From Polyangiaceae bacterium (lineage in GTDB: Bacteria > Myxococcota_A > Polyangia > Polyangiales > Polyangiaceae), in contig JAKLKA010000007.1 of the NCBI GenBank assembly GCA_023150915.1, forward strand, positions 1-64,000: 64,000 nucleotides of DNA, read 5' to 3'. Positions 1,884-17,431 of this stretch are shown piece after piece. A program made the position numbers and the translations under genes. Within the stretch, counting starts at the first letter, position 1. Each line of letters opens with the position of its first letter. Under the pieces are notes generated by a model. That model worked only from the letters and a program-made list of their open reading frames with translations. It did no database searches and was not told where the DNA came from.

Positions 1884-2711
1884 ATGCTGAAGATCCTGTC
1901 CTGGAACATCGCGCACCGATCGGAGCCTTGGCGCGAGCTGCTGAAATCGGGCGTGGACATCGCCTTGCTCCAAGAGGCGAAAGCGCCGCCGCCAGAGGTC
2001 GCGGACCAGGTTCGTACGGATACCCACGAGTGGCGCATCGCAGCGACCGGGCTCACCTGCCCGTGGCGGGCTGCCGTCGTCGCGCTCTCGCAGCGCGCGC
2101 AGATCGACTTCATCGAGCCGCGTCCGCTCGCGGAGGCCCCTCTTCGCAGCTTGGGTGTCAGCCGGATGGGCACGCTCGCGGCAGCGGACGTGACCGATCC
2201 CGACACGGGCGAGCGAATCACGGTGGTGTCGATGTACGCCTTCTGGGAGGAGCCTCGCTCCGACGCGAAACAACCTTGGATCTACGCCGATGCCTCGGCG
2301 CATCGCCTGATCTCGGACTTGAGCATGTTCATCGCCACGAAGAGCACGCACCGCATCATCGCGGCCGGAGATTTGAACATCCTCCGTGGCTACGGCGAAT
2401 ACGGGGATGCCTACTGGGCTGGACGCTACGCGACGGTCTTCGACCGCATGGCGGCGATAGGGCTGGACTACGTTGGTCCCCAGGAAGGGCGCCCTGCAGA
2501 GCCTTGGCCTGAGGAGCTTCCAAAGGACAGCAAGAACGTCCCGACCTATCACACCGCGCAGCAAGGCCCGGCAGGCGCGACGCGGCAGCTCGACTTCGTC
2601 TTCGCGTCGCGCGAGATTGCTCCGCGGGTCTCCGTGCGCGCACTGAACAGCTTGGAGGAGTGGGGGCCGAGCGACCACTGTCGGATCAGCATCGAGGTGA
2701 ACACTCGATGA
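1884..2711 (+). CDS. Endonuclease/exonuclease/phosphatase (EEP) family protein
   Basis: The 275-residue protein starts at ATG 1884 after a GAGGGGA ribosome-binding site. It shows the ordered EEP motifs: SWNI near residue 6, LLQEA near 30 (metal-binding Glu), AAGDLNI near 161 (catalytic Asp-Asn), RQLDFVFAS near 234 and SDHCRI near 264 (catalytic His). There is no signal peptide, so it is probably cytoplasmic. The family covers metal-dependent DNases, RNases and phosphatases; specificity is not visible. Its stop overlaps the next start (ATGA). EEP proteins are not standard DISARM components, so its place in this operon is notable. Confidence 0.85.
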   Translation: MLKILSWNIAHRSEPWRELLKSGVDIALLQEAKAPPPEVADQVRTDTHEWRIAATGLTCPWRAAVVALSQRAQIDFIEPRPLAEAPLRSLGVSRMGTLAAADVTDPDTGERITVVSMYAFWEEPRSDAKQPWIYADASAHRLISDLSMFIATKSTHRIIAAGDLNILRGYGEYGDAYWAGRYATVFDRMAAIGLDYVGPQEGRPAEPWPEELPKDSKNVPTYHTAQQGPAGATRQLDFVFASREIAPRVSVRALNSLEEWGPSDHCRISIEVNTR

Positions 2712-4804
2712 GCGACGGGTGGCTCCTCACCATCAAGCCGAGCTTCCTCCACGAGCTCGTGGCTCTGCCCGCAAAGGAGGCCGCGCAGGTGCAGAAGAAG
2801 CTCGAGAGCCTGACGGCGGATCCTCGGCCGGACGCCAAAGTGAAGAAGCAGCTCAAGCACCTGGACGGTCGGCTGCACCGCCTGCGCTCCGGCGACTTTC
2901 GCATCTTCTACACCTTCGACGAGCGCTACGTCAGCGTGCTGTCGCTGCGCAAGCGCGACGAGCAGACGTATTCGGAGATACCGGAAGCGGAGTCGCTCGG
3001 GGGCGGCGACGTGTCCGGAATCCAGGATCCGCCCGAAGTCAGAAACGACGTCGGCGCATGGCTCGAGACCAGCACGACGTTGCGGCCCAAGCCGCTTCCT
3101 CGGCCGATCACCGTCGAGCTGCTCGACGCGCTCCGGGTGCCGCCCGAGCACCACGCACGACTTCTGGCGGTCCAGACCGAGGACCAGCTCCTCGACTGCG
3201 CGGACGTCCCCGAGAAGATCCTGGAGCGGGTGCTCGACGGCGTCGTCGGCCGACCCCTCGATGACATTGCGCGGCAGCCTGACCTCGTCGTCGAGAGCCC
3301 CGACGATCTCTTGCGCTATCGGCAGGGCGAGCTCTTGGGTTTCCTGCTGCGACTGAATCCGGAGCAGGAGAAGCTCGTGACCTGGTCGCTGGCCGCGCGC
3401 GGGCCCACCCTGCTCAAGGGCGGACCAGGGACGGGCAAGAGCACCGTGGCTCTGCACCGAGTGAAGATCGTACTCGATGCCCTTCGGAAGACTGCGGTCG
3501 AGCGGCCGCGGATCCTGTTCACGACCTACACCAACGCGCTGGTCCGCTACTCCGAGCAGCTCCTGCGGTCTCTCCTGGGAGATGACGCAGGCTGTGTCGA
3601 GGTGCGAACCGCCGACAGCGTGGCCATCGGCATCGCCCGAGCTGCCGGCGAGGACCCGCACATCCTCGACGGCGGGGAGCTCCGCGCGCTCGCCGAGCGG
3701 GCCTTGCGCGAGGTCGAGCTTCAAGGCAATTCGCTGGCGCAGAAGGCGCAACGCGCGACCCTCGATCGTCTGGGCGTCGAGTACGTGACGGAAGAGGTGC
3801 TCGACGTGATCGACGGGCGCGGCCTGGGCTCTCTGGACGAGTACCAGTCTGCTGCACGGCCGGGGCGGCAGCTTCCCCTGAACCGCACGCAGCGCGAAGC
3901 CGTCTGGCGTGTCCACGCGAAGCTCCACGAGCTCCTCGACGCCTCGCACCGCACCACCTGGGCTGACGTGCGGCTCCACGCCGTTCAGGCGCTCACCGAA
4001 GGCCGCGTGAACGAGCGATACGACGCGGTGCTGATCGACGAAGCGCAGGACCTGTCGCCTTCGGCCCTCGAGGTGCTGGTGCGCTCGTGCCGGGAGCCGA
4101 ATCGCCTGTTTCTGACCGCCGATGCGAATCAGTCCATCTACGGAGGGGGCTTTCGCTGGTCCAACGTGCACGAGTGGCTCAAGTTCCAGGGCCGCACGGG
4201 GGTGCTGCGCGCCAACCACCGGAGCACGCGGGAGATCGGCGAGGCTGCGGAGTCCTACCTGGCGGGCGGCGCGCTCGACCCCGAGCGGGAGGAGCCGGCG
4301 TACGTCCATGCCGGGCCGCTGCCCGCGGTGCGCGCGGTGGCGAGCGCCTACGACGAGACCCAGCTTCTGGCGCGCTTCTTCCGCGGCGCGGCGCGCGATC
4401 TGCGCCTCGGGCTCTCCGCCTGCGCGGTGCTCTGTCCGACGAACACCGCGGCCCAGCGAGTGGCCTCGGAATTGAACGGCCTGGGCATCGCGGTGCGGTA
4501 CATGGCCGCGAAGGACCTGGACGTCGGCGCCGCCGAGGTGAAGACGCTGACGTTGAAGTCGGCCAAGGGACTCGAGTTCCCGATCGTGGCGCTGGCCGGC
4601 TTCCTCGACGGCCCGTTTCCGATGGTGCCAAAGGGGGCCACGGACGAGGTGCTGAAAGAGATCGAGGAGCGCGAGCGCCGAACCCTCTACGTGGCGATGA
4701 GCCGCGCGATGCGCGCGCTTTTGATCGTGGAGCCCGCGGAGCGCAAGAGCACACTGCTCGCCGGGTTCGATTCGACCCGTTGGAATCTTGGAGTGACCTC
4801 ATGA
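2708..4804 (+). CDS. RelE-like domain fused to UvrD/Rep-type superfamily 1 helicase
   Basis: The 698-residue product starts at ATG 2708 in an ATGA overlap. Residues 1-90 (LTIKPSFLHEL, LHRLRSGDFRIFYTFDE) match the RelE/ParE fold. The helicase follows: Walker A GGPGTGKST near 238, motif Ia ILFTTYTNALV, Walker B VLIDEAQDLSP near 441, motif III FLTADANQSIYGGG, motif IV LRANHRSTREI, motif V LTLKSAKGLEFP and motif VI TLYVAMSRA near 659. All motor motifs are intact, so this should be an ATP-dependent 3'-5' DNA translocase. The RelE fold may serve as a binding module rather than a toxin. It sits directly before drmA, where class 1 DISARM usually has the SNF2-type helicase DrmD. Confidence 0.85.
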   Translation: MSDGWLLTIKPSFLHELVALPAKEAAQVQKKLESLTADPRPDAKVKKQLKHLDGRLHRLRSGDFRIFYTFDERYVSVLSLRKRDEQTYSEIPEAESLGGGDVSGIQDPPEVRNDVGAWLETSTTLRPKPLPRPITVELLDALRVPPEHHARLLAVQTEDQLLDCADVPEKILERVLDGVVGRPLDDIARQPDLVVESPDDLLRYRQGELLGFLLRLNPEQEKLVTWSLAARGPTLLKGGPGTGKSTVALHRVKIVLDALRKTAVERPRILFTTYTNALVRYSEQLLRSLLGDDAGCVEVRTADSVAIGIARAAGEDPHILDGGELRALAERALREVELQGNSLAQKAQRATLDRLGVEYVTEEVLDVIDGRGLGSLDEYQSAARPGRQLPLNRTQREAVWRVHAKLHELLDASHRTTWADVRLHAVQALTEGRVNERYDAVLIDEAQDLSPSALEVLVRSCREPNRLFLTADANQSIYGGGFRWSNVHEWLKFQGRTGVLRANHRSTREIGEAAESYLAGGALDPEREEPAYVHAGPLPAVRAVASAYDETQLLARFFRGAARDLRLGLSACAVLCPTNTAAQRVASELNGLGIAVRYMAAKDLDVGAAEVKTLTLKSAKGLEFPIVALAGFLDGPFPMVPKGATDEVLKEIEERERRTLYVAMSRAMRALLIVEPAERKSTLLAGFDSTRWNLGVTS

Positions 4805-7800
4805 ACGACAGCCCGGAGCGCATCATCCTGAGCGGTGAGCTCACCGACGTCGGCTATGCCGAGGACCTGTCCGCACGGTTGCGCGCGGGAAGCTGCGTGC
4901 TCGACTGGACCGCGGTCACGCGGGTGACGGACCTGTTCGCGGATGCGCTCGTGCAAGGTCTCCGCGTCGACGAGGTCGCGGACTCCATCGGCACGGGAAC
5001 GATGCGCGACGAGCTCTCGGAGATCGTGGGAGCCGCCTTCGAGCGAGCCCCTTACAGTCGGAAGCCGAGCGCAAGAAACCGAGCGAAGGCGGCCAAAGAC
5101 GACACGGTCGCGGTCTGGACTGCGCCACCGGAGCCCGAGCCGGCGCCGAAGTCCGAGCGTCCGGTTTCGCGGCGTGCGCAGCGACGAGCGCCCATTCTCG
5201 TCGCCGACGTGCCGTCCCAGGAGGCGCTCCGCTCGATGCTCGAGGAGCGCGTGATCGCCGATCTGCTCGGTCCCGCCGGTGGGCCCGAAGAGGAAATCGT
5301 CGAAGGCAGCGTTCGCGACCGATACCTCGTGGGCATGCTCGCGCCGCGCCGAGTTCGCATCGAGCCCGAGGAAGTGGACGGGGTCGAGGCCGAGGAGAGC
5401 GCCGCGAGCGACGATGGCACCGGCGATTCGGCGACGATCTCCACGCCGACGATGTTCCCCTCGGCGGTGGGCCTGAGCTTCGTGGTCGCGGCAGACGCGC
5501 CGGCCTTGAAGGTGACCGCGCGGTGGGGGAGCTACCAGCGGCTGCCAAGCGAGACTGTGACGACCGAGACCGGCAAGCCCAAGCTGGTTTGGAAGCGCAA
5601 GCAGGTCGAGGTCGGAGTGCCACTCGGGCCGCTTCGCGAGGGCGCGCTGGGGCCGTTCCGTGTCGGCGGCGATCCAGACGACGTGGAAGCACCGGCCCAG
5701 GTTCGAGGCATCGCTCGCCGAGTCAGCGGCGGTTTTGTCGTCAGCCTCTTCCTCGTGAACAACCAGGACGAGCCCGAGGAGCGCCGCGACACCGCCTGGC
5801 TGTTCCAGCCCGAGCTCATCGCGGAGGCCACGGACGGAAGCGCGGTGTTCCTGTCTCGCCTCGGCGACCAACTCCCCTCCGGCGATCTCGAGCCGCTGGC
5901 CGAGGACCGGACGCTGGCCATGCTCTACCGCGATCGACGCGAGCTCGCGGTTGGTCACGGCGCTGCGGTCCACGTCGATGTGGACCCGCCCGACCCACGC
6001 CGTGGCGTGCGCGTGACCACCCGCGTGGTGCCGGCGTCGGATGTTCTCCAACAGACCCCGCCGACGGCGGCTGAGGAACCGATGCTCGCGGGCGTCGTTC
6101 ACGACATGAAAGAGCTCGCGGAGGCCACTCCGGCGGAGCTGGTCGAGCGCCTTCGAAAGCTGCCGGACGCCTATGCGGATTGGATTGCGCGACAGCGCCA
6201 GCGCATTGCGGATCCCGCGGCGCGCCTGGATGGGTTCGAGGACGATGCGAAGTCGGCGCTCGACGGGTGCGAGGTCGCTCTCCGGCGCATGAAGGAGGGC
6301 CTCGCGACGCTGGAGCAAGACGCCAAGGCCAACGAGGCCTTCCGCTTCGCGAATCGCGCGATGTGGCTTCAGCGCGTGCGCACGGTGTTCGCGGAGGAAC
6401 GCCGTCGCGGCAAGGACCTCACGGTCGCAGATGTAGACATTCCGGACAACCGCACATGGCGCACTTTCCAGCTCGCGTTCATGCTGGTCAGCCTCGCCAG
6501 CGTCACCCGCCTCGACCACCCCGACCGCAATCACGCCACCGATGCCATCGCGGACCTCTTGTGGTTCCCGACCGGTGGCGGCAAGACCGAGGCCTACCTG
6601 GGCTTGGCCGCGTACACGCTCGGCCTGCGCCGTCTCCAGGGTACGGTCGAAGGCCGCTCGAGCGAGCACGGCGTTGCGGTGCTCATGCGGTACACGCTCC
6701 GCTTGCTGACGCTTCAGCAGTTCCAGCGCGCAGCAGCGCTGATCTGTGCCTGCGAGCTCATTCGCTCGGAGGCCGAGAAGAACGGAAACCCCGTCTGGGG
6801 TCGTGAGCCCCTCCGTATCGGACTCTGGGTGGGCGCCCGCAGCACGCCCAACAAGACCGAGCACTCCGCCGAGGTCCTCAAGCGCACGCGCGACGTGGGC
6901 TTCCGCCAGGGGAGCCGTGTCGGCGGCATGGGGACGCCAGTGCAGCTCAAGTCCTGCCCGTGGTGCGGGTCGGCCATCGAACCCGGCCGTCACATGCGCG
7001 TCGAGTCGTTCGCCAGCGGCGTCGGACGGACCCTGACCTACTGCGGTGATCGCCTCGGAACCTGCCCGTTCTCCCAGCGCCAGTCGCCAGGCGAAGGCCT
7101 GCCGGTGCTCGTCGTGGACGAGGAGATCTACCGCCGGCTGCCCGCGCTGCTCATCGCCACGGTCGACAAGTTCGCGCAGATGCCCTGGAACGGCGCGGTG
7201 CAGATGCTCTTCGGACGCGTCCAGAGCCGCTGCGACCGCCACGGGTTCGCGGCTCCGGAGCTGGGCGATACCGACCACAAGCGCCGAGGCGCCCAGCCTG
7301 CCACCAAGCTCCGCGATCACGACCCAGTTCGCCCGCCCGACCTGATCATCCAGGACGAGCTCCACCTGATCAGCGGTCCGCTCGGAACGCTCACCGGTCT
7401 TTACGAGACCGCGGTGGATTCGCTGTGCGCGTGGACGGTGAACGGGCAGGTCGTGCGCCCCAAGGTCATCGCCTCGACGGCCACGATCCGACGAGCCCGC
7501 CAGCAGATCCATTCGCTGTTCCTACGCAAGGTCCAGGTCTTTCCGCCCCACGGGCTCGATGCCGGTGACAACTTCTTCTCGCGCCAGCGCCCAAGCCTGC
7601 CTGGCCGTCGCTACATCGGGGTCTGCGCGCCTGGCCGTCGCCTGAAGGCGGTCATCATGCGCGTCTACGTCGCGTTCCTGGCGGCTGCGGAGAGCCTTTA
7701 CCAGACGTACGGCAAGCACGCCGATCCGTGGATGACCCTGGTCGGCTACTTCAGCTCGTTGCGCGAGCTCGCCGGCACGCGCCGACTCGTCGATGACGAC

Positions 7801-8670
7801 ATCTCCAACCGCACCAGGAAGATGGACCGGCGCGGGCTCGCGAGTCGCTACCTCTACAGCCCCGAGGAGCTGACCTCGCGGCTCGACTCGACCCAGATCC
7901 CCGAGCTGCTCGATCGCCTGGAGATCCCCTTCGACCCAGCCGAGGAAGACGACCGAAGCCGCCGCCGCCCCATCGACGTGCTGCTCGCGACGAACATGGT
8001 CTCGGTCGGCGTGGACGTGAAGCGCCTCGGACTCATGGTCGTGTCCGGACAACCCAAGAACACGGCCGAGTACATCCAAGCGACGAGCCGCGTGGGCCGC
8101 TCCGCGCCCGGCCTGGTGTGCACGATCTTCAACTGGGCGCGCCCGCGGGATCTCTCGCACTACGAGACCTTCGAGCACTACCACGAGACCTTCTACAACC
8201 AGGTCGAGGCGCTGAGCGTTACGCCATTCGCCGCGCGCGCACTCGACCGCGGGCTGAGCGCCGTGCTCGTCTCGCTGCTGCGGCTCACGCACGACCGGCT
8301 GAACCCCAACGAGGCCGCCGCCCGCCTTTCGCGCGACGACTCGCTCGTCGAGGAAGCGATGAACGCCATCGTCGCCCGTGCCTCGATGGTCGAGAACAGT
8401 CAGGAGGTAGGCGACGCCGTGCGACGATTGCTCGAGCGCCGCGTCGATGAGTGGCTCGCCGACGCTCAGCCCAGACCCGGCGGCGCCACGCTCTCGTACC
8501 GGGCGAAGCGCGACGGCACCTCGCGCCCGCTGCTCAAGCGCTCCGGCATGGGCAGCTGGGAGACCTACACCTGCCTGAGCTCGCTTCGCGACGTCGAGCC
8601 CAGCGTCGATCTCGTGCTCACCGATGGCAATCTCGATGACGATACCCGCCCGTTCACGAGGAAGTCCTGA
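4801..8670 (+). CDS. drmA: DISARM helicase DrmA with N-terminal STAS-like extension
   Basis: This 1,289-residue protein starts at ATG 4801 (ATGA overlap). Residues 1-85 (VLDWTAVTRVTDLFADALVQ) resemble the STAS-like DUF4325 domain. After a charged linker, DLLGPAGGPEEEIVEG and DRYLVGMLAPR open the DrmA-type region. Motor motifs are FPTGGGKTEAY near 588, DELHLISG near 852, ASTAT near 890, VLLATNMVSVGVDVKRLG and YIQATSRVGRS near 1091. A cysteine cluster (CPWCGS near 719, CGDRLGTCPF near 747) suggests a zinc site. In DISARM, DrmA forms a DNA-binding complex with DrmB that blocks incoming phage DNA. The gene is followed at once by drmB (TGATG overlap). Confidence 0.92.
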   Translation: MNDSPERIILSGELTDVGYAEDLSARLRAGSCVLDWTAVTRVTDLFADALVQGLRVDEVADSIGTGTMRDELSEIVGAAFERAPYSRKPSARNRAKAAKDDTVAVWTAPPEPEPAPKSERPVSRRAQRRAPILVADVPSQEALRSMLEERVIADLLGPAGGPEEEIVEGSVRDRYLVGMLAPRRVRIEPEEVDGVEAEESAASDDGTGDSATISTPTMFPSAVGLSFVVAADAPALKVTARWGSYQRLPSETVTTETGKPKLVWKRKQVEVGVPLGPLREGALGPFRVGGDPDDVEAPAQVRGIARRVSGGFVVSLFLVNNQDEPEERRDTAWLFQPELIAEATDGSAVFLSRLGDQLPSGDLEPLAEDRTLAMLYRDRRELAVGHGAAVHVDVDPPDPRRGVRVTTRVVPASDVLQQTPPTAAEEPMLAGVVHDMKELAEATPAELVERLRKLPDAYADWIARQRQRIADPAARLDGFEDDAKSALDGCEVALRRMKEGLATLEQDAKANEAFRFANRAMWLQRVRTVFAEERRRGKDLTVADVDIPDNRTWRTFQLAFMLVSLASVTRLDHPDRNHATDAIADLLWFPTGGGKTEAYLGLAAYTLGLRRLQGTVEGRSSEHGVAVLMRYTLRLLTLQQFQRAAALICACELIRSEAEKNGNPVWGREPLRIGLWVGARSTPNKTEHSAEVLKRTRDVGFRQGSRVGGMGTPVQLKSCPWCGSAIEPGRHMRVESFASGVGRTLTYCGDRLGTCPFSQRQSPGEGLPVLVVDEEIYRRLPALLIATVDKFAQMPWNGAVQMLFGRVQSRCDRHGFAAPELGDTDHKRRGAQPATKLRDHDPVRPPDLIIQDELHLISGPLGTLTGLYETAVDSLCAWTVNGQVVRPKVIASTATIRRARQQIHSLFLRKVQVFPPHGLDAGDNFFSRQRPSLPGRRYIGVCAPGRRLKAVIMRVYVAFLAAAESLYQTYGKHADPWMTLVGYFSSLRELAGTRRLVDDDISNRTRKMDRRGLASRYLYSPEELTSRLDSTQIPELLDRLEIPFDPAEEDDRSRRRPIDVLLATNMVSVGVDVKRLGLMVVSGQPKNTAEYIQATSRVGRSAPGLVCTIFNWARPRDLSHYETFEHYHETFYNQVEALSVTPFAARALDRGLSAVLVSLLRLTHDRLNPNEAAARLSRDDSLVEEAMNAIVARASMVENSQEVGDAVRRLLERRVDEWLADAQPRPGGATLSYRAKRDGTSRPLLKRSGMGSWETYTCLSSLRDVEPSVDLVLTDGNLDDDTRPFTRKS

Positions 8671-10523
8671 TGACCGTCAAGGCGCGCCTGGGTGAGCTTC
8701 GCCCGACTCAGCTCCTCTACACCTACGGCGTCGGATCCGTCGTCGATCTGCCGCATCTGTCGGTCATGGTCATGGGCATCGAGGACTGGGACGCCAACTA
8801 CACCCGTCCCATCATCGAGACGCGGCTTCTAGACCAAGTCCAGCGCCGCCTCGGCCCCCAGGTACAGAGCCTGCGCACGCCGCCGATGCGCGACGACGAG
8901 GCCGAAGGCTTCTTCATGGCGCAGGACGATCACGACGCGGTGGGCGTCCCAGTCGCGCCGTTCCCGCGCTGGCTGCGCTGTCCTGCCTGCGGCCTGCTCG
9001 CGCCCATCGGCTCCGGCCTCTTCCGCCTGCGCACCGTGCCGAACCGGCCCGATCTCGCCAAGTACGTGCACAGCGGCTGCAACCGTCGTCGCGAGCCGAC
9101 CGTCCTGCCCGCACGTTTCCTGCTCGCTTGCGAGTCCGGTCACCTCGACGACTTTCCGTGGCACTGGTTCGTTCACAAGGGTCAACCGTCGGAGTGCCGT
9201 GGACACCTCGAGCTCCGCGAGCTGGGCGTCTCGGGCGAAGCCGCCGACGTCGAGGTGCGCTGCCGGAACTGCGACGCCAATCGGCGCATGGCCGATGCGT
9301 TCGGTCGCGAGGGCCTGGCCAACCTGCCCGGGTGCCGCGGCCGCCGGCCCCAGCTCCGCGACTTCGAGGACGAGGCCTGTTCCGCCCAGCCGCGCACCAT
9401 CTTGCTGGGCGCGTCGAATAGCTGGTTCGCCGTCACGCTCTCCACGCTGTTCGTCCCCACGGCCACCAAGGACGAGCTCGCAACGCTGCTACAAGAGCAT
9501 GCGACGCGCTTCGAAGGCGCCGAGGACCTCGGAACGATTCGCTACCTGCGAAAACAGGGCCAGCTCGGCGCCTTCGCGAAGTACACCGACGAGCAAGTCT
9601 GGGCCGCACTCGAGGCCCAGCGGGCCGCAGCCAACGACGACGACTCCGCCCACGAGGATCTGAAGGAGCCAGAGTGGCGCGTGCTCTCACGCCCCGATCC
9701 TGCGCTGAACGGGGCCGATTTCCAGCTCACCGAGGTCGCCGTCCCGCGCCGATACGCGAGCTTCATCGAGCGAGTCGTTCTCGCCGAACGCTTGCGCGAG
9801 GTCACAGCCCTGATCGGCTTCACGCGCATCGCGTCCCCGCGCGATCTCGCGGAGGAGGAAGAAGCCCGCGGCCGCGTCATCGCCCGCATCTCGCGCGGCG
9901 ACCCCGCGTTCGTGCCCGCGTCCGAGGTCCGCGGAGAGGGCGTGTTCATCCAGTTCCACGAAGAACGCATCGCCGACTGGGTCGCCGCACGCGAGGCCTG
10001 GGAGGACCGCTTCCGCGACGCTCACGTCGCCTGGCGCCGCCGCCGCCACATCGATCCGCCCGACGCCGGCTTCCCAGGCATCCGCTTCATTCTCATCCAC
10101 TCGTTCGCGCACGCCCTGATGCGCGAGCTCGCGCTCGAGTGCGGCTACGCCGCCGCCAGCATGCGCGAGCGCATCTACGCCCGCGACCCGGAAGGCGACA
10201 AGGCCGCCATGGCTGGCGTGCTCATCTACACCGCCGCACCCGACGCCGAGGGCACCCTCGGCGGCCTCGTCCGCCTGGGCACCCCCGCTGAGCTCGAACG
10301 CCACATCCGCCGCGCCCTCGAAGCTATGGCGCTCTGCTCGTCCGACCCGCTCTGCGCCGACCACACGCCCGACGCCGACGGCGCAACCCTGCACGGCGCT
10401 GCATGCCACGCCTGCCTCTTCGCCCCGGAGACCTCGTGCGAGCGAGGCAACAAGTACCTCGACCGCACCACACTCGCCGCCACCGTGTGCTCCGGCGAGC
10501 ACGCCTTCTTCAAGGAGAAGTGA
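8670..10523 (+). CDS. drmB: DISARM protein DrmB (DUF1998)
   Basis: The 617-residue product starts at ATG 8670, overlapping the drmA stop by one base. It opens LGELRPTQLLYTYGVGSVVD, the typical DrmB start. Zinc-binding-type cysteine pairs follow: CPACG near 107, CRNCDANRR near 198, and a CHACLFAPETSCERGN cluster near the end within the DUF1998 domain. HSFAHALMRELALECGY is the family hallmark. DrmB is the obligate partner of DrmA in the DISARM core complex. There is no motor or nuclease motif, as expected. Full length and well conserved in layout. Confidence 0.92.
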   Translation: MTVKARLGELRPTQLLYTYGVGSVVDLPHLSVMVMGIEDWDANYTRPIIETRLLDQVQRRLGPQVQSLRTPPMRDDEAEGFFMAQDDHDAVGVPVAPFPRWLRCPACGLLAPIGSGLFRLRTVPNRPDLAKYVHSGCNRRREPTVLPARFLLACESGHLDDFPWHWFVHKGQPSECRGHLELRELGVSGEAADVEVRCRNCDANRRMADAFGREGLANLPGCRGRRPQLRDFEDEACSAQPRTILLGASNSWFAVTLSTLFVPTATKDELATLLQEHATRFEGAEDLGTIRYLRKQGQLGAFAKYTDEQVWAALEAQRAAANDDDSAHEDLKEPEWRVLSRPDPALNGADFQLTEVAVPRRYASFIERVVLAERLREVTALIGFTRIASPRDLAEEEEARGRVIARISRGDPAFVPASEVRGEGVFIQFHEERIADWVAAREAWEDRFRDAHVAWRRRRHIDPPDAGFPGIRFILIHSFAHALMRELALECGYAAASMRERIYARDPEGDKAAMAGVLIYTAAPDAEGTLGGLVRLGTPAELERHIRRALEAMALCSSDPLCADHTPDADGATLHGAACHACLFAPETSCERGNKYLDRTTLAATVCSGEHAFFKEK

Positions 10524-10524
10524 G

Positions 10525-11301
10525 GTGGACGCTCTCCTCGAGGCCATCGTGACGCTCGCGAGCGACCTGCCCCGCGACACGGTCGAGGCGCTGGCAGCAG
10601 CAGTGGTAGGCACGGCCGATCCAAAGCAAGCGGGCCGTCTCGCGGGCATGGTGGTCACCGCGCCGGCCGCCCAGGACCGCGTGCGAACCATGCTCGAACG
10701 ATGGCCTGACGGCGTCTCCGGCGCCTCGGTCGCCCTCGCGCTCCGCAGCGCAAGCCGGATGGACAACCACCATCGCACTCGGCAGCACATCGAGCTGGTG
10801 TGGACGGGGCCGGTGCCTGCGGGCACAAGCTTCCGCCGCTCCGATCAGGTCTTGCTCGAGATGGTGCGCGAGGCGAAGCGCCGGATCACCATCGTCAGCT
10901 TCGCCACCTACCGGGTCCCGGTGGTGCACACCGCGCTGCTCGCCGCCGCGAAGCGCGAGGTTGAGGTTGTGTTCATCGTCGAATCCGCGCGAGAGAGCGA
11001 GGGGCGCGTGAACATCGACCCGCTGCACGCCATTGGGTCAGAGCTGGCCGAGCTGGCGCGGGTCTACGTTTGGCCGCGAGAGAAGCGGCCGACCGACGAG
11101 AACGGGAACTTCGGGCTCTTGCACGCAAAGTGCGCGATTGCGGATGGGAAGCGTCTGCTCGTGTCGAGCGCGAATTTCACGGCGGCGGCCCTCGCGAAGA
11201 ACATGGAGCTGGGGGTGCTCATCGAAGGCGGGGAGGTGCCGGGGGTGGTGGAGGGGCATTGGGAGGGGCTGCTCACGGCACGATACCTCGCGAGGATTTG
11301 A
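10525..11301 (+). CDS. drmC: DISARM protein DrmC, phospholipase D-like nuclease
   Basis: The 258-residue protein starts at GTG 10525, one base after the drmB stop. The C-terminal half holds one PLD motif (LLHAKCAIADGKRLLVSSAN, near residue 198) followed by FTAAALAKNMELGVL. The N-terminal half is helical. DrmC has a single HKD motif and is predicted to act as a dimeric nuclease. In the first DISARM study it was less essential for defence than DrmA and DrmB. This is the last gene of the operon; the next gene is convergent after 80 bases with no clear terminator. Confidence 0.88.
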   Translation: MDALLEAIVTLASDLPRDTVEALAAAVVGTADPKQAGRLAGMVVTAPAAQDRVRTMLERWPDGVSGASVALALRSASRMDNHHRTRQHIELVWTGPVPAGTSFRRSDQVLLEMVREAKRRITIVSFATYRVPVVHTALLAAAKREVEVVFIVESARESEGRVNIDPLHAIGSELAELARVYVWPREKRPTDENGNFGLLHAKCAIADGKRLLVSSANFTAAALAKNMELGVLIEGGEVPGVVEGHWEGLLTARYLARI

Positions 11302-11381
11302 CGGAATCCCAAGTATCAGCGTCCCTGGTCCAGCCGGGTCGGCGGAAGCGGACTTGCAGGAACGCACGATCGCGTCCGACG

Positions 11382-12623
11382 CTACGCACGGCGTTGCCAC
11401 TCTTCGTTCAGCAGTTCGACAGTCTTCCCTTTCTCCTTGAGCCTCTCCAACAGCCAGGAACGAACTGCTTCAACGCCCTCGGTCGTCGCGCCGTCAATCC
11501 GCGTGTCCGGGTCGAAGACCGTCGCGATCTTGGGAACTCCGCTGAGCTTCGCTTCAAGGTCGTCCCACACGTGATCGCGGTCCGCAGGGCGTACCAGGTC
11601 AAGCTTGTTTGCACACACAAGTAGCGGGCGCTGGAACCCTCCTACCTTTCGGCAAATTTCCACGTCCGTATTCGTGCATCCCCGGTTCATGTCGACGATG
11701 ACGAGAAACACGTCAGTGTGGTGAAGGAAGTCATCGGTCGCCGCCTCCACGTCCGCTCTGTAGTCGTTGAACCCGGGATAGTTGACGACCTTAATCGTCC
11801 CTGCCGGGTCGCTCTCGTAGACCTCGGCGTGGGTGGTGGAGCCAGCGACGGGGTCGATGTTCGCTGGGATGCCGAACACTGCCCGCAACGCCGAGTCCTT
11901 CCCGGTCGCCCCGTCGCCGACGATGCCGATGGTGATTCGCATCGACAGCATCTGTCTGAGGTATGCGACGTGGACGACCGCCGGCACGGTCTTGCGGTAC
12001 GCCGGTCCCGCCAGATCCAGCGCGAGCCACGCGCCGCTGACGATCCAGCCGACGGGCCCCAGCGCGAGCCCGATCATTCGCGTCAAGGCCGCATTCGCTG
12101 CTAGTGACAGCCCGCGCCCAAGCAGTGCGCGCGCGACGTAGTTGGCCACGATGACCGCAAATCTGTAGACGGCGAAGCCGCCGAACTGCTTGAGGAGCAC
12201 CTGGGCGACGGCCGCCCCCACCGCACCGACCGGCAGCGCGGACTCATCGATGTTCATTTCGCGAAAGAGCTCGCGACGCTCTTCCGGCGAAAGCTGCTCG
12301 AGCATGTCCTCGAACAGTTTTGCCAGGATCGCCCGCTCGTTGGCTTCGACGGCTCCATTCGAAGAGACAGCTGCCTTGAGGCGTTTCCCGACATCCAGAA
12401 CTACTTCCGCGTAGTCAACTCCTTCTCGGCCCCTCATCAGCGACGCGAGATCGTGGCTACCCGCAAGACGGAGCTCGGAGGCTATCTTCTTCGCACGCTC
12501 GCGCTTTGCGGAGGGCAGTGACGAGGCGTCGAGCTTCAAGTAAGTGATGAGAGGCTCTACGTCAGCCTCGTTGAACTCGAGGCTTCGATGGATGACGTCG
12601 ATGATGTCGAGTACCTTGGCCAT
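11382..12623 (-). CDS. YaaW-like (UPF0174) domain fused to a dynamin/Era-like GTPase
   Basis: The 413-residue product starts at ATG 12623. Residues 1-225 resemble YaaW/UPF0174 proteins: SHDLASLMRGREGVDYAEVV, then a hydrophobic stretch (about 150-205) ending AGPAYRKTVPAVVHVAYLRQ. A GTPase domain follows. G1 is GDGATGKDS near 236, the G3 region is VNYPGFNDY (Asn-Tyr-Pro-Gly, not the usual Asp-x-x-Gly) and G4 is CANKLDLV near 337. It is probably membrane-associated. It is encoded with a small glycine-zipper protein behind a sigma-54-type promoter, next to a divergent sigma-54 activator. The role is unknown; a membrane-stress or defence function is inferred. Confidence 0.75.
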   Translation of the reverse strand: MAKVLDIIDVIHRSLEFNEADVEPLITYLKLDASSLPSAKRERAKKIASELRLAGSHDLASLMRGREGVDYAEVVLDVGKRLKAAVSSNGAVEANERAILAKLFEDMLEQLSPEERRELFREMNIDESALPVGAVGAAVAQVLLKQFGGFAVYRFAVIVANYVARALLGRGLSLAANAALTRMIGLALGPVGWIVSGAWLALDLAGPAYRKTVPAVVHVAYLRQMLSMRITIGIVGDGATGKDSALRAVFGIPANIDPVAGSTTHAEVYESDPAGTIKVVNYPGFNDYRADVEAATDDFLHHTDVFLVIVDMNRGCTNTDVEICRKVGGFQRPLLVCANKLDLVRPADRDHVWDDLEAKLSGVPKIATVFDPDTRIDGATTEGVEAVRSWLLERLKEKGKTVELLNEEWQRRA

Positions 12624-12640
12624 GTGATTCCTCCCGATAC

Positions 12641-12991
12641 TCAGACCACCAACAGAAGCTCGGACTCCGAGGGATTCCAGACAATCCGGTGGTGAGCCAC
12701 CGTGTATCCGGCGATGGCGCCGACGCCGGCTCCGACGACGGCCCCGGGGGGCCCAGCCACGAGGTACCCGAAGCCTGCCCCGATCAAAACGCCGGCGGAG
12801 GTGAAAAGCGCAAGACGGGTCCCGTCCGGGCGGATGACTTCGATTCGCACGTCGTGTTCGCGGCAGTAGCACTCGAGCCAACGCAGCAGGTCGTTCTCGA
12901 GGGCAGGGTTGACCGTGAAGCGTGCCGATGAACCTACGCGAATGAACGGGGCCAGCTTGTGTAGCTGGTTGTGCTTCTGGATATTGGCCAT
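12641..12991 (-). CDS. Small glycine-zipper membrane protein
   Basis: The 116-residue protein starts at ATG 12991 after a strong AAGGAGG site. The N-terminal 60 residues are soluble (ECYCREHDVRIEVIRPDGTR). Residues about 70-100 form a hydrophobic glycine-zipper segment (GVLIGAGFGYLVAGPPGAVV, then GAGVGAIAG), a pattern that packs or oligomerises in membranes. It lies 17 bases upstream of the YaaW-like GTPase gene in the same operon, so the two may act together at the membrane. No known family is recognised. Confidence 0.7.
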   Translation of the reverse strand: MANIQKHNQLHKLAPFIRVGSSARFTVNPALENDLLRWLECYCREHDVRIEVIRPDGTRLALFTSAGVLIGAGFGYLVAGPPGAVVGAGVGAIAGYTVAHHRIVWNPSESELLLVV

Positions 12992-13025
12992 GAGGGCCTC
13001 CTTTTCGGATTGACGACGAAGCATC

Positions 13026-13042
13026 AGCAAGCCCCGTGCCCT
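13026..13042 (-). promoter_or_regulatory. Sigma-54 (-24/-12) promoter for the GTPase operon
   Basis: On the minus strand the site reads GGGCACG, four bases (GGGC), TTGCT. The consensus is TGGCACG-N4-TTGCW, so the invariant GG and GC and the spacing are exact and only the first T differs. Transcription would start near 13015, about 24 bases before the start codon at 12991. A sigma-54 activator gene begins 96 bases away on the other strand, which supports function. Confidence 0.8.
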
Positions 13043-13137
13043 GGGTGCGCGAGGGCGACAGGCTTGGACAAATATCTGAAAGTGCAGCGATTAGCTCCTG
13101 GCTTGCGGCGCACGAAATGAGCAAATAGTCTCAGGCG

Positions 13138-14838
13138 ATGAGCAAAAGTGCTCGATACCGAGTTATTTGGCTTGGAGAGCACCGCGGGCGGTTACTGGCA
13201 GGGGCGACCGTGAGCTACCGCTGTCCCCTGTCGGCCGCCGAGAGGCCGATCGTATCGAGGGTGGACGGTACGAGACTGGAACTTCAGCCCGCAAGCTGGG
13301 GGATCGCCGGTGTCCAGGAGGCGGTGCGCCGGTGCGAGTGGAACGCGGAGGTTCAACGAGTAGCGCAGCGCGGACCGCGCGAAGTTCTGCAAGCCGAGGG
13401 TCGCGATCCTGCGGAACTCCTTCGTGCGCCGCGGCATGTTGGCGACTCCGTTCCACCGCACGTTCGCGAGCTCGAGGCAAAGGCTGAGGAGATCGTCTAC
13501 GCCAAGACCGTCTTTGTTCTTCCTGAGCGGGTGGGGAGCGGTTCGCGCGAACTTGGGGCGACGACCGCCTTCGTTTCGAGTGTCGTTGAACAGCTGACCC
13601 ACGGCGCGAGCAGTCGCTTGGTCGACGGCGAATTCGTTTGTCACATTGGCGTGGCCTTCATTCCAAGCAAGCCAGCGGCAGCCCCTCAAGATGCCGAGGC
13701 TGACGTGAACGTGCGCGACAATCTCTTCGGTCAAGCGATCGCATCGATTTCAATGTCGGCCGAGCAACGAGTCCGTCGCTGGCTTCGTCCAGGCCCCATC
13801 TTGTTCCAAGGGCCAAGTGGATCCGGAAAGAGCGCGGCCGCCGCTCGGCTCGGCCGGGAGCGCCCTGGCCCGTTCGTTCACGTCAACGTGAGCGCGATAC
13901 CGGAGACCCTCGTCGAGTCTCGCATGCGCGGCCATGCAAAGGGCTCCTTCACCGGTGCGAACAAGGCTGCGAAAGGCTGGTTCGAAAACGCCCACCGCGG
14001 GACATTACTTCTCGATGAGTTCCAGAAGGCCGAGGAGTGGGTTCAGACACAGCTTCTCGACCTACTGTCCGCAACATCAGACACCGTGACCGTCGCTCGG
14101 ATGGGCGAGGACGAGAAGCGCCGCGTTTGTGATGTGAAGGTGGTCATTGCGCTGAACGAGCAGCTCTCCGACCTGATTGAGCAGAAACGCTTTCGGCAGG
14201 ACCTGGCGAATCGAGTTCGCCACATTGAGAGCTTCCCGCCGCTTGACGACATCACGTCAGGTAGAGAACCAGTTCCGCGTGGGATGAGCGTTGAAGCGTA
14301 TCTCGCGGCGCTGCTCGTCGCGTTTCGGTGGCGCTTTGCGCTTCTGTCCGTAGCAGCGGGCGACGACACCACCGCAGACCCGACGCCTCACGTACGGTCG
14401 CTCGTGCCATCGTTTTCGAACGAGCTGATTGCAGTGCTTCGCCGTCGCAGCTGGCGCGGCAACTACCGCGAGCTGGAGCGCCTGGCGGCCGATCTGTTCG
14501 AAGACCTGGACCGAAGTCAACGCGGTAGAGCGGAGGCCAGCCTTCTCCCGTCCGATGGAGTCTCCTTTGCTCCTGGTGACGCCGACGCCGTCGAGGCAGA
14601 GGGCCGCGCCGTGGCACTTCGCCAAAGGTCAAAAGTCGTTGACGCCTTGGAGCGCGCGCTGTTGCTGCACGACTTCGTGCTGAGCCGGGTTGTCGAAGAG
14701 GTGGAACTGAGGGACTACAAGATCTCTACTCGGAGAACGCTCGTGCGGCGGCTCATCGCTCACGAGACCGAGTTCTCGCCGGAAGTGCGTGAGAAGTCGA
14801 AGTTCCGGCGCATCGTTGAGCGCTCGCGCAGTCCTTGA
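13138..14838 (+). CDS. Sigma-54-dependent AAA+ transcriptional activator with unrecognised sensor domain
   Basis: The 566-residue protein starts at ATG 13138. Residues 1-180 form an N-terminal domain of no recognised family; no receiver, GAF, PAS or FHA signature is seen. The AAA+ core has Walker A QGPSGSGKSAAA near 225, KGSFTGANK near 267 (sigma-54 contact loop GSFTGA instead of GAFTGA), Walker B GTLLLDEF near 290, and an arginine-finger region FRQDLANRV near 352. WRGNYRELERLAADL near 440 replaces the usual WPGNVREL. The C-terminal 90 residues would bind DNA but no standard Fis helix-turn-helix is obvious. It is divergent from the sigma-54-promoted GTPase operon and is the likely activator of it. 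Confidence 0.88.
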   Translation: MSKSARYRVIWLGEHRGRLLAGATVSYRCPLSAAERPIVSRVDGTRLELQPASWGIAGVQEAVRRCEWNAEVQRVAQRGPREVLQAEGRDPAELLRAPRHVGDSVPPHVRELEAKAEEIVYAKTVFVLPERVGSGSRELGATTAFVSSVVEQLTHGASSRLVDGEFVCHIGVAFIPSKPAAAPQDAEADVNVRDNLFGQAIASISMSAEQRVRRWLRPGPILFQGPSGSGKSAAAARLGRERPGPFVHVNVSAIPETLVESRMRGHAKGSFTGANKAAKGWFENAHRGTLLLDEFQKAEEWVQTQLLDLLSATSDTVTVARMGEDEKRRVCDVKVVIALNEQLSDLIEQKRFRQDLANRVRHIESFPPLDDITSGREPVPRGMSVEAYLAALLVAFRWRFALLSVAAGDDTTADPTPHVRSLVPSFSNELIAVLRRRSWRGNYRELERLAADLFEDLDRSQRGRAEASLLPSDGVSFAPGDADAVEAEGRAVALRQRSKVVDALERALLLHDFVLSRVVEEVELRDYKISTRRTLVRRLIAHETEFSPEVREKSKFRRIVERSRSP

Positions 14839-15018
14839 GGCACGTGCGCGCGCCTGCTGGACTCGACGAACCCCATCCAGCCACCAGAGGAACACGAGCC
14901 AGGGCAGCGTGCGGAGGATGCTGGCCGGGGCGATCGGACCTCCGCCGCACGATGGACGCACCGCGTCAGCCTCGCCGCGCTGTCCATGTCAGTAGTCCCC
15001 TGCTACCCTTGGGGCATC

Positions 15019-15696
15019 ATGCCAGAGGCCAAGGAAGGTTCAGAGGGCGGGAAGCAGACTCGCGCGACAAGCCACGAGTTGCTCGCGGCGGCGTACGAGC
15101 ACGACTCCGTGGTCAACATCTACCAGGAGCGCTTGCAGTCTCTCTTCTACGAGCTCGCTGACCTGTCGCGCGCCATCGGCATGGACGCTCGCGTCGAGCT
15201 GAAGCCATCGAGGCAGCGCTTCGAACTGAGCTCTGGGTACTACGTTGCGTTGCGCCCGATTCCTGCGGAAATCCCGCAAGAAGTGTTCAACAAGCTCGAT
15301 GAGCTCTTCGCCGCTGCCCGTGACCAAGACGTGCGTGGAGCAGCTCGCATGTTCCTGCTCGCGCTGATCGACAGCGAGGCGAAGCGGACGAAAGGACGCG
15401 TGGAGCTGCGCGAGCCCGGGGGGATCCGGATCCTGTTCGGCGCGCAGTACCCCGAGTACGCGGTAGGACTGACCGACGAGCGGCTTCAGATCGCACTGGA
15501 CGTTTGGGCCCGGCGGGGCGGCCCCCGGAAGAACAAGACCATCCCGGAGAAGTGGGTGGCGCTGGCCGACCTGATGAACGTGCTCGACCTTGGACCGATC
15601 AAGCCCAGCAGCCTCGAGCAGCAGTGGCTGACCTGCGGCTACAAGCGGGCCCGCTCGCAGCAGAAGAACTCCCAGGTTCCCGAACTGAACAGTTAG
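15019..15696 (+). CDS. Hypothetical protein of the island
   Basis: A 225-residue protein if ATG 15019 is used; an in-frame ATG at 14986 would add 11 residues, and no convincing ribosome-binding site settles the choice. It is soluble and charged, with an N-terminal helical half (SLFYELADLSRAIGMD) and a basic C-terminus (GPRKNKTIPEKWVALADLMN, then CGYKRARSQQKNSQ). No family is recognised. It lies between the sigma-54 activator and the excisionase/integrase pair. The 180 bases upstream show no other gene. Confidence 0.6.
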   Translation: MPEAKEGSEGGKQTRATSHELLAAAYEHDSVVNIYQERLQSLFYELADLSRAIGMDARVELKPSRQRFELSSGYYVALRPIPAEIPQEVFNKLDELFAAARDQDVRGAARMFLLALIDSEAKRTKGRVELREPGGIRILFGAQYPEYAVGLTDERLQIALDVWARRGGPRKNKTIPEKWVALADLMNVLDLGPIKPSSLEQQWLTCGYKRARSQQKNSQVPELNS

Positions 15697-15781
15697 CTTT
15701 CGGAGCTGACCTGTTTTGGTGCTCAGCGCGGTCGTAGAACCTCAGGGTCGGCGGCAAGAGCTAAGCCGCCCTGGAGGACCA

Positions 15782-16024
15782 ATGCGCACCAAAGAACCGA
15801 GCCCTGCAGAGCAAGACGACGCCCTCTGGGACGCCCAGGACGTGGCTACCTACCTGAAGGTCAGTCGCAGCTGGGTGTACCAGCGCGTCGAAGCCGGCCA
15901 GCTCCCCTGCCTTCGCATCGGCGGCTTGCTCCGCTTCGACCCCGCTACGATCCGTGCCTGCGCACGCGGCGAGCAGCGCGTGCAGGCCCGCGTGGTATCC
16001 TTGAGCTCCCGACGGAGTTTCTGA
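15782..16024 (+). CDS. Excisionase-like helix-turn-helix protein
   Basis: The 80-residue protein starts at ATG 15782 after CTGGAGG. Residues 20-60 (LWDAQDVATYLKVSRSWVYQ, then RVEAGQLPCLRIGGLLRFD) are a MerR-like HTH_17/excisionase domain that binds DNA and bends it or regulates integrase genes. It ends four bases before the integrase start, as in many integrative elements. It probably directs excision or represses the integrase; which one cannot be told from sequence. Confidence 0.85.
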   Translation: MRTKEPSPAEQDDALWDAQDVATYLKVSRSWVYQRVEAGQLPCLRIGGLLRFDPATIRACARGEQRVQARVVSLSSRRSF

Positions 16025-16027
16025 GCA

Positions 16028-17431
16028 ATGGCCTCGGTCTATCGGCGCGCAGACAAGTGGTACCTGCGGTACCGAGACCGGCATGGCCGGTGGCGCGACC
16101 GCGTCTCCATGGCGCGCACCAAGGCCGAGGCGAAGCGCCTGGCCATCGAGCTCGAGCTCCGGTCAGAGCGAGAGCGGCTCGGCCTGGAGGTTCCCAGGGA
16201 GCAGGACGACCGCACCGTGGACGACTTGCTCACCTGGTGGCTCGAGACGTACTCGAAGGGCAGCCCCTCGCATGACAGGAACCGCGCGACCGTGGAGAAG
16301 AACCTGCTCGGGAACGAGCTGGGGAAGACCCGCCTCGACGACCTGACCCCCGGGCAGATCGAGATCTTCCTGCAGGCCCGCTCGGCCGACCTGGCGCCCC
16401 AGAGCCTGAACCACCTGCGCCGGTTCATCCTGACGGCCTTCAACCGGGCGAAGGCAGCCGGGAAGTGGCGCGGACCGAACCCCGCGGCCGAGGTCGCCAG
16501 GCGCAAGGTGCCGAAGAGGCTGCCCAGCTTTCTGTCCGCGGCCGAGGTCCCCAAGGTGTTGGCGGCGCTGGCGCCGCGCTGGCGGCCGGTCTTTGCTACG
16601 GCGGTCTACACGGGGATGCGCCGCGGCGAGCTGCTCGGGCTCCGCAAGCGCGACGTGGACTTCCAGGCCGGCCTGATCCAGGTCACCCGCTCGCACGCCG
16701 CCGACACCACCAAGGGCATGCACGCCGACGCCATCCCCATCGCGACGGAGCTCGTAGCGTACCTGCGCGAAGCCTTCGCCCGCTCGCCCTCCGACCTGGT
16801 CTTCCCGAAGGCCAACGGCGCCATGATGCGCCCGGACGTGGCGCTCGAGGGCGTCCTGCGGCGCGCCATGGCCCGTGCCGGCATCGTGGAGGGCTACCAG
16901 CACGTCTGCCGCAAGAAGGGCTGCAAGCACGTCGAGCACGTCCTGGACGCCTCAGAGAGGCGCTGCCCGGTCCACAATCACCGCCTCTGGCCCAAGGCCA
17001 AGGTCCGCCCCATCCGCTTCCACGACCTCCGGCACACGACGGCCAGCCTGTTGATGATGGCCGGGGCGAGCACGGCGTCCGTGCAGCGCATCCTGCGCCA
17101 CAGGGACCCGCGCGTGACCGTCGAGGTCTACGGGCATCTCACGCCGGGGTTTCTCCGCGCTGAGGTCGATCGGCTGCGCTTCAATCCGAATCCCCCCGAG
17201 CAGGAAGAGCAGCGTCATGCCGAACCGGTGGCGGTGAACGCCGATTCGTTTGCTGCATCCTTGCTGCAGGGCGCGGACGACGAGCCCTCGGCGGAAAAGA
17301 TCACCTCGGAAACTCCCGAGTCGTCTCCACCGGTTGACTCTGCGCGCCCGAGAGGATTCGAACCTCTGACCTACGGCTCCGGAGGCCGTCGCTCTATCCA
17401 GCTGAGCTACGGGCGCAAAAGGGCGCTCTGA
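16028..17431 (+). CDS. int: Tyrosine recombinase (integrase) overlapping tRNA-Arg
   Basis: The 467-residue integrase starts at ATG 16028. It has an N-terminal AP2-like arm-binding region (VYRRADKWYLRYRDRHGRWR), a SAM-like core-binding domain, and the catalytic domain. The catalytic Arg is in TGMRRGELLGL near 198, the HxxR box is HDLRHTTASLL near 332, then LRHRDPRVTVEVYGH with the nucleophile Tyr near 367. Residues 294-316 hold a cysteine/histidine insertion (CRKKGCKH...CPVHNH) that may bind zinc. The last 29 or so codons are antisense to tRNA-Arg, so the coding sequence crosses the attachment core and its C-terminus probably depends on integration state. It marks the right end of the island. 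Confidence 0.93.
   Translation: MASVYRRADKWYLRYRDRHGRWRDRVSMARTKAEAKRLAIELELRSERERLGLEVPREQDDRTVDDLLTWWLETYSKGSPSHDRNRATVEKNLLGNELGKTRLDDLTPGQIEIFLQARSADLAPQSLNHLRRFILTAFNRAKAAGKWRGPNPAAEVARRKVPKRLPSFLSAAEVPKVLAALAPRWRPVFATAVYTGMRRGELLGLRKRDVDFQAGLIQVTRSHAADTTKGMHADAIPIATELVAYLREAFARSPSDLVFPKANGAMMRPDVALEGVLRRAMARAGIVEGYQHVCRKKGCKHVEHVLDASERRCPVHNHRLWPKAKVRPIRFHDLRHTTASLLMMAGASTASVQRILRHRDPRVTVEVYGHLTPGFLRAEVDRLRFNPNPPEQEEQRHAEPVAVNADSFAASLLQGADDEPSAEKITSETPESSPPVDSARPRGFEPLTYGSGGRRSIQLSYGRKRAL
17343..17416 (-). tRNA. tRNA-Arg (anticodon CCG)
   Basis: The minus strand folds into a standard cloverleaf: acceptor GCGCCCG/CGGGCGC, D arm GCTC...GAGC, anticodon arm ACGGC-CTCCGGA-GCCGT with anticodon CCG, and T arm AGAGG-TTCGAAT-CCTCT. 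CCA is not encoded. The 3' end faces the integrase, which is the usual target half for tyrosine integrases. Confidence 0.95.
17343..17431. other. Attachment site region (island/chromosome junction)
   Basis: The integrase frame and the 3' half of tRNA-Arg overlap here. The tRNA 3' end points into the island, so the crossover core should lie within roughly 17343-17380. The matching copy at the other end of the island is not in the window. Confidence 0.65.

Follow-up and report, generated by a model that had tools for sequence, protein, structure and literature searches.

What does a dedicated sigma-54 activator switch on when the operon that it faces encodes a glycine-zipper membrane protein and a GTPase? 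The question is raised by a small module in the first 64,000 nucleotides of contig JAKLKA010000007.1 (assembly GCA_023150915.1) from a Polyangiaceae bacterium, a stretch that we call the window. Three open reading frames were confirmed there: the activator gene on the plus strand and, divergent from it, the glycine-zipper gene and the GTPase gene on the minus strand. The original prediction took the set for a system with no described counterpart, which was too strong, because the GTPase carries a JukA domain, missed at that time and found with PADLOC, that links the module to the described Juk (jumbo phage killer) immune system. The parts and their layout, the conserved promoter, the activator clade, the fusion of JukA to a G domain and the mobility of the module are established here by sequence comparison. 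From the JukA domain, the conserved promoters and layout, the activator clade, the defence neighbours and the mobile carriage we lean, with moderate confidence, towards the module being a mobile, inducible, GTPase-armed variant of Juk-type immunity.

The JukA-GTPase fusion has 413 amino acids (12623-11382, minus strand; MMR_HSR1 E=1.4e-6), and its homologues back the ATG at 12623 as the start, and not the start of the open frame at 13124. Its JukA domain (residues 40-226; 11943-12506, minus strand) is matched by PADLOC JukA PDLC04111 at E=1e-46 and by NCBIfam PRK10236 at E=7e-13; PADLOC JukA matches reach E=2e-46 and E=2e-41 for the homologues in loci L057 and L059, introduced below, and JukA-only relatives in bacteria and prophages align over this part of the protein. 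What had been labelled a YaaW-like GTPase is thus to be corrected to a fusion of a JukA domain (DUF3944/YaaW) with a G domain separate from it. This G domain (residues 229-402; 11418-11939, minus strand) is of the Era/EngB class, as indicated by MMR_HSR1 and by Era/Der structures. The usual P-loop has GK followed by Ser or Thr; in the window it reads GDGATGKD (residues 236-243), and all five aligned homologues have GxxxxGKD, with Asp replacing the Mg-binding Ser/Thr, and keep the NKxD motif, present in the window as a G4 motif NKLD. The fusion is likely to bind nucleotide.

The best structural match of the G domain is EngB (Z 16.1, root-mean-square deviation (rmsd) 2.8, 148 aligned residues), with Era, Der and Irga6 all within 1 Z unit of it. 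Immunity-related GTPases (IRGs) such as Irga6 and IRGB10 attack pathogen vacuoles, which can be likened to the attack of Juk on the phage vesicle, and they have a similar G-domain fold (Z 15.5, 173 residues, rmsd 3.1), but no IRG helical domain is seen in the module GTPase. Because the Z-scores tie with those of EngB, Era and others, kinship with IRGs was rejected and the likeness is kept as an analogy. The first gene of the operon encodes the glycine-zipper membrane protein, of 116 amino acids (12991-12641, minus strand; Pfam Gly-zipper_Omp E=1.7e-5), for which hydropathy indicates a soluble N-terminal half followed by a hydrophobic glycine-zipper segment at about residues 60-100. Its homologues occupy the same position in L057, L058 and L059, and none of these glycine-zipper proteins matches a PADLOC family.

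Is this arrangement peculiar to one genome? A scan of the genomes of 84,980 species with the window GTPase returned two full-length relatives, one from Rheinheimera sp. 4Y26 (L057, 52% identity) and one from Simplicispira hankyongi (L058, 51%), neither of which belongs to the phylum of the window. Both bacteria have the complete module in the same layout, with a divergent activator, a small glycine-zipper protein and the GTPase. A near-copy of the Simplicispira module, adjoining an integrase and an excisionase-like gene, occurs on an IMG/VR contig (L059), so that full-length GTPase identity to the window protein is 51-52% in these three loci. A search of Rheinheimera relatives added a fourth independent case (L075, genome G975; 43%), in which the activator divergent from the GTPase falls in the same clade but has a different N-terminal domain, and which has no glycine-zipper gene. 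The association of the three genes, on which the original prediction had made itself refutable, thus recurs across phyla in L057, L058 and L059, and carriage of the module on mobile elements is likewise seen at the level of sequence. Such carriage invites another explanation, in which the GTPase and the glycine-zipper protein serve the interests of the island, for instance by excluding competitors or by killing cells that lose it. The position of the window module, between DISARM genes and an excisionase/integrase pair, would suit this role, as would the integrase beside the L059 module; however, the L058 module is surrounded by ordinary chromosomal genes, and the 15 kb covered there shows no integrase, and in L075 (968-8270) the genes for the dynamin-like defence proteins LeoBC and LeoA (E=6e-88 and 4e-88) stand directly beside the module, so that we regard island maintenance as improbable. 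LeoA/LeoBC resemble the module in being GTPases with a predicted membrane role, but the module G domain is of the Era/EngB type and not of the dynamin type.

The control of the operon rests on a predicted -24/-12 promoter, GGGCACGGGGCTTGCT (13041-13026, minus strand; GGGCACG-N4-TTGCT), with one mismatch to the consensus TGGCACG-N4-TTGCW and ending 35 bp before the glycine-zipper ATG at 12991, just where a near-consensus sigma-54 site had been proposed. By itself the motif is not strong evidence of a promoter, since matches with up to two mismatches occur in the G+C-rich window at chance level (10 observed, 10.9 expected). In a position weight scan, whose scores are relative because the weights approximate the published consensus, the score of GGGCACGGGGCTTGCT was equalled by none of 2000 segments of 220 bp drawn at random from the window, and 3 of 1000 shuffled versions of the intergenic region scored as high. 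The decisive support for a sigma-54 site comes from its conservation across loci. In L057, L058, L059 and L075 the top-scoring intergenic site is likewise of the form GG-N10-GC, stands 53-57 bp ahead of the operon's first gene and is directed at the operon (TTGGCACAGTTTTGGCA, CTGGCACAGTTCATGCG, CTGGCACAGTTCATGCA and TTGGCACCTTTGTTGCT), with shuffle controls of 0/1000 for each, and all four genomes have rpoN. Near the start of the activator gene, two repeats read from the sequence, ATGAGCAAA (13117-13125 and 13138-13146, 21 bp apart), are candidate activator-binding sites, the second lying in a palindrome, GAGCAAAAGTGCTC (13140-13153).

The divergent gene encodes a bacterial enhancer-binding protein (bEBP) of 566 amino acids (13138-14838, plus strand; Pfam Sigma54_activat E=1.7e-34), in agreement with the claim of a sigma-54 AAA+ activator with an unrecognised sensor. 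Among its homologues, Sigma54_activat gives E=2.5e-33, 3e-38 and 8e-28, and in L057, L058, L059 and L075 a homologous activator again faces the operon divergently. The AAA+ domain spans about residues 205-460, with a GSFTGA loop. Residues near 490-566 form confident helices in an AlphaFold2 (AF2) model (predicted local distance difference test, pLDDT, ~85) and gave no Pfam helix-turn-helix match; this helical C-terminal region is probably DNA-binding. The sensor domain (residues ~1-200; 13138-13740, plus strand) belongs to no known family: Pfam and NCBIfam searches gave no match, 379 genomes of the phylum gave partial matches only (E 0.002-0.01) and no confident one, and no close relatives were found in plasmids or, with the full activator as query, in IMG/VR. 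The AF2 model, built from four sequences only and with a mean pLDDT of 42, is too poor to define the fold of the sensor. In a tree of the AAA+ and C-terminal part with 11 other bEBPs and Escherichia coli RtcR, a single clade with 100/100 support unites the module activators, and this small tree with long branches speaks for their separateness from these outgroups rather than for a wider phylogeny. The N-terminal domain of the L075 activator has no detectable similarity to those of the other module activators, so that a second cue is predicted for this swapped sensor.

Could the module be an RtcR-like switch for RNA damage with a new output, its sensor being a highly diverged CARF domain with RNA ends or cyclic nucleotides as ligands? 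The likeness to RtcR-rtcBA had been suggested from the layout, and the layout is indeed the same: a sigma-54 activator that has a sensor at its N-terminus controls a two-gene operon divergent from it (PMC9650030). Among PADLOC models, RtcR_PspF2 also fits the AAA+ part best (E=2.4e-38), but the match covers residues 217-370 only and leaves the CARF part of the model unmatched; hhalign gives the module sensor a probability of 0.2% against the RtcR CARF domain, and E. coli RtcR falls outside the module clade. Moreover, the output of the module, a glycine-zipper protein and a JukA-GTPase, is unrelated to rtcB/rtcA, and L075 carries a sensor domain that looks unrelated to the others. Kinship with RtcR was rejected on the PADLOC, hhalign and tree results, RtcR remains an architectural analogy because the sensor has no CARF similarity, and an RNA-damage switch is in our view very improbable.

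How might a Juk-type module of this kind work? In the Juk system, JukA senses the vesicle that forms early in infection, JukB is a pore-forming effector, and the effectors vary between Juk systems, transcriptional regulators included (jumbo phage review, PMC13282480). The module shares the JukA domain but fuses it to a G domain, and it has a glycine-zipper protein in the place of an identified JukB. From these sequences we infer an anti-phage activity and an inducing signal, which could be arranged as follows. The activator would bind near its own start, at the two ATGAGCAAA repeats (13117 and 13138), and its N-terminal sensor would hold it off, by analogy with RtcR (PMC9650030), until an infection cue or a foreign membrane compartment frees the AAA+ domain, which would then open the sigma-54 polymerase at the -24/-12 promoter. 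A burst of glycine-zipper membrane protein and JukA-GTPase would result. The JukA part may recognise an early phage compartment, as JukA does, the G domain may be a nucleotide-gated switch for assembly or remodelling, and the glycine-zipper protein may help to breach the membrane together with the GTPase, in the place held by the pore-former JukB. That jumbo phages would be the specific target is a guess from JukA. A more specific and clearly tentative version has the JukA domain steering the GTPase and the glycine-zipper protein to the phage-made vesicle, under the inducible control of a dedicated bEBP with exchangeable sensors, as a bacterial parallel to the interferon-induced GTPases that attack vacuoles. 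In the open-licence literature searched, we found no description that joins JukA with either a GTPase or a sigma-54 activator, and none of an anti-phage system that has a comparable bEBP of its own. If the Juk-type reading is right, some of the Juk family, rather than being produced constantly, is induced by a sigma-54 activator of its own, the JukA sensor has become coupled to a GTPase, and the sensor domain of the activator should respond to an infection cue, which would then be open to a reporter search.

Several observations weigh against Juk-type immunity. The JukB pore-former is not identified at the module. The dedicated divergent activator, which predicts inducible expression, is a departure from Juk, because jukAB of strain PA14 is expressed constitutively (PMC12571901). 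GTP hydrolysis by the fusion is uncertain, because its P-loop has Asp for Ser/Thr. The sigma-54-contacting loop of the activator, GSFTGA in the window and the canonical GAFTGA in L075, reads GAFTDA in L057 and GSFTDA in L058 and L059; a good -24/-12 site is kept in those three loci. Furthermore, distant JukA-GTPase fusions (~30-38% identity) are found in the majority of genomes in some other Myxococcota families, their genes (e.g., L087, L088, L030 and L031) form tandem pairs with another GTPase gene, and in L031, a locus that was inspected, an apparent kdsB-like gene lies nearby, which together hint that a fusion of JukA and a G domain can serve a housekeeping role. The near-universality of the distant fusions in these families, suggestive of an endogenous membrane role, also favours a membrane-stress response like phage shock (Psp), in which the activator would sense envelope damage, the GTPase, bound to the membrane, and the glycine-zipper protein would be expressed through sigma-54 and repair or seal membranes, and the defence genes would be mere neighbours on the island. 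The pspF-pspA plan consists of a divergent activator, a sigma-54 operon and a membrane-associated output, all of which the module shares, but PspF has no N-terminal sensor domain and the module has no PspA. The close form of the GTPase is patchy, detected in just a few of the genomes searched, and the integrase elements, the DISARM and LeoA/LeoBC neighbours and the JukA domain fit defence better, which leaves a Psp-like response as an unlikely explanation, although the most serious of the rivals to Juk-type defence.

Is the sigma-54 control a property of JukA genes in general? A module-type activator was found in none of 19 JukA-only loci (flanks of ~3-5 kb; L095 is cut by the contig edge), and no protein similar to the module activators occurs in the distant JukA-GTPase loci L087 and L088. 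Among 15 JukA-only genes, no upstream sigma-54 site scored above 6.8, except in L086 (genome G029, same Myxococcota family; 4939-5697, minus strand), where a solitary JukA gene has a near-perfect -24/-12 site, CTGGCACGCACCGTGCT, 49 bp upstream with a score of 17.0, and no module-type activator within 5 kb. JukA may thus have come under sigma-54 control on more than one occasion. A general sigma-54 regulon of JukA-only loci was rejected, since 14 of the 15 controls have no strong -24/-12 site.

The claim that the module is self-contained and lies on an island is supported. The tyrosine integrase gene (16028-17431, plus strand; Pfam Phage_integrase E=1.3e-21), preceded by an excisionase-like HTH_17 gene (15716-16024; Pfam HTH_17 E=1.6e-8), overlaps the tRNA-Arg(CCG) (17342-17416, minus strand), the attachment end of the island, where synteny breaks. 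The tRNA and its right-hand neighbours are retained in two congeneric genomes, whose similarity to the window ends where the tRNA has its 3' end (17323-17339), and by this comparison the island is inserted at the tRNA-Arg. A second attachment repeat was searched for within the window and not found. The module is lower in G+C (63%) than the sequence on the right-hand side of the tRNA (~71%). An open reading frame of 236 amino acids (14986-15696), which separates the activator from the excisionase-like gene, has no match to a Pfam, NCBIfam or PADLOC family, and in L059 the module is followed (6034-11480) by a protein of 1420 amino acids with an ATPase core, for which PADLOC gives a weak match only (E=0.007), and a partner of 422 amino acids. 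On the other side of the window module lies a DISARM-like core (2708-11301), in which a UvrD-type helicase gene (2708-4804) precedes drmA (open reading frame 4087-8670, start probably near ~4816; PADLOC E=0), drmB (8670-10523; PADLOC E=1.9e-83) and drmC (10525-11301; PADLOC E=8.6e-68).

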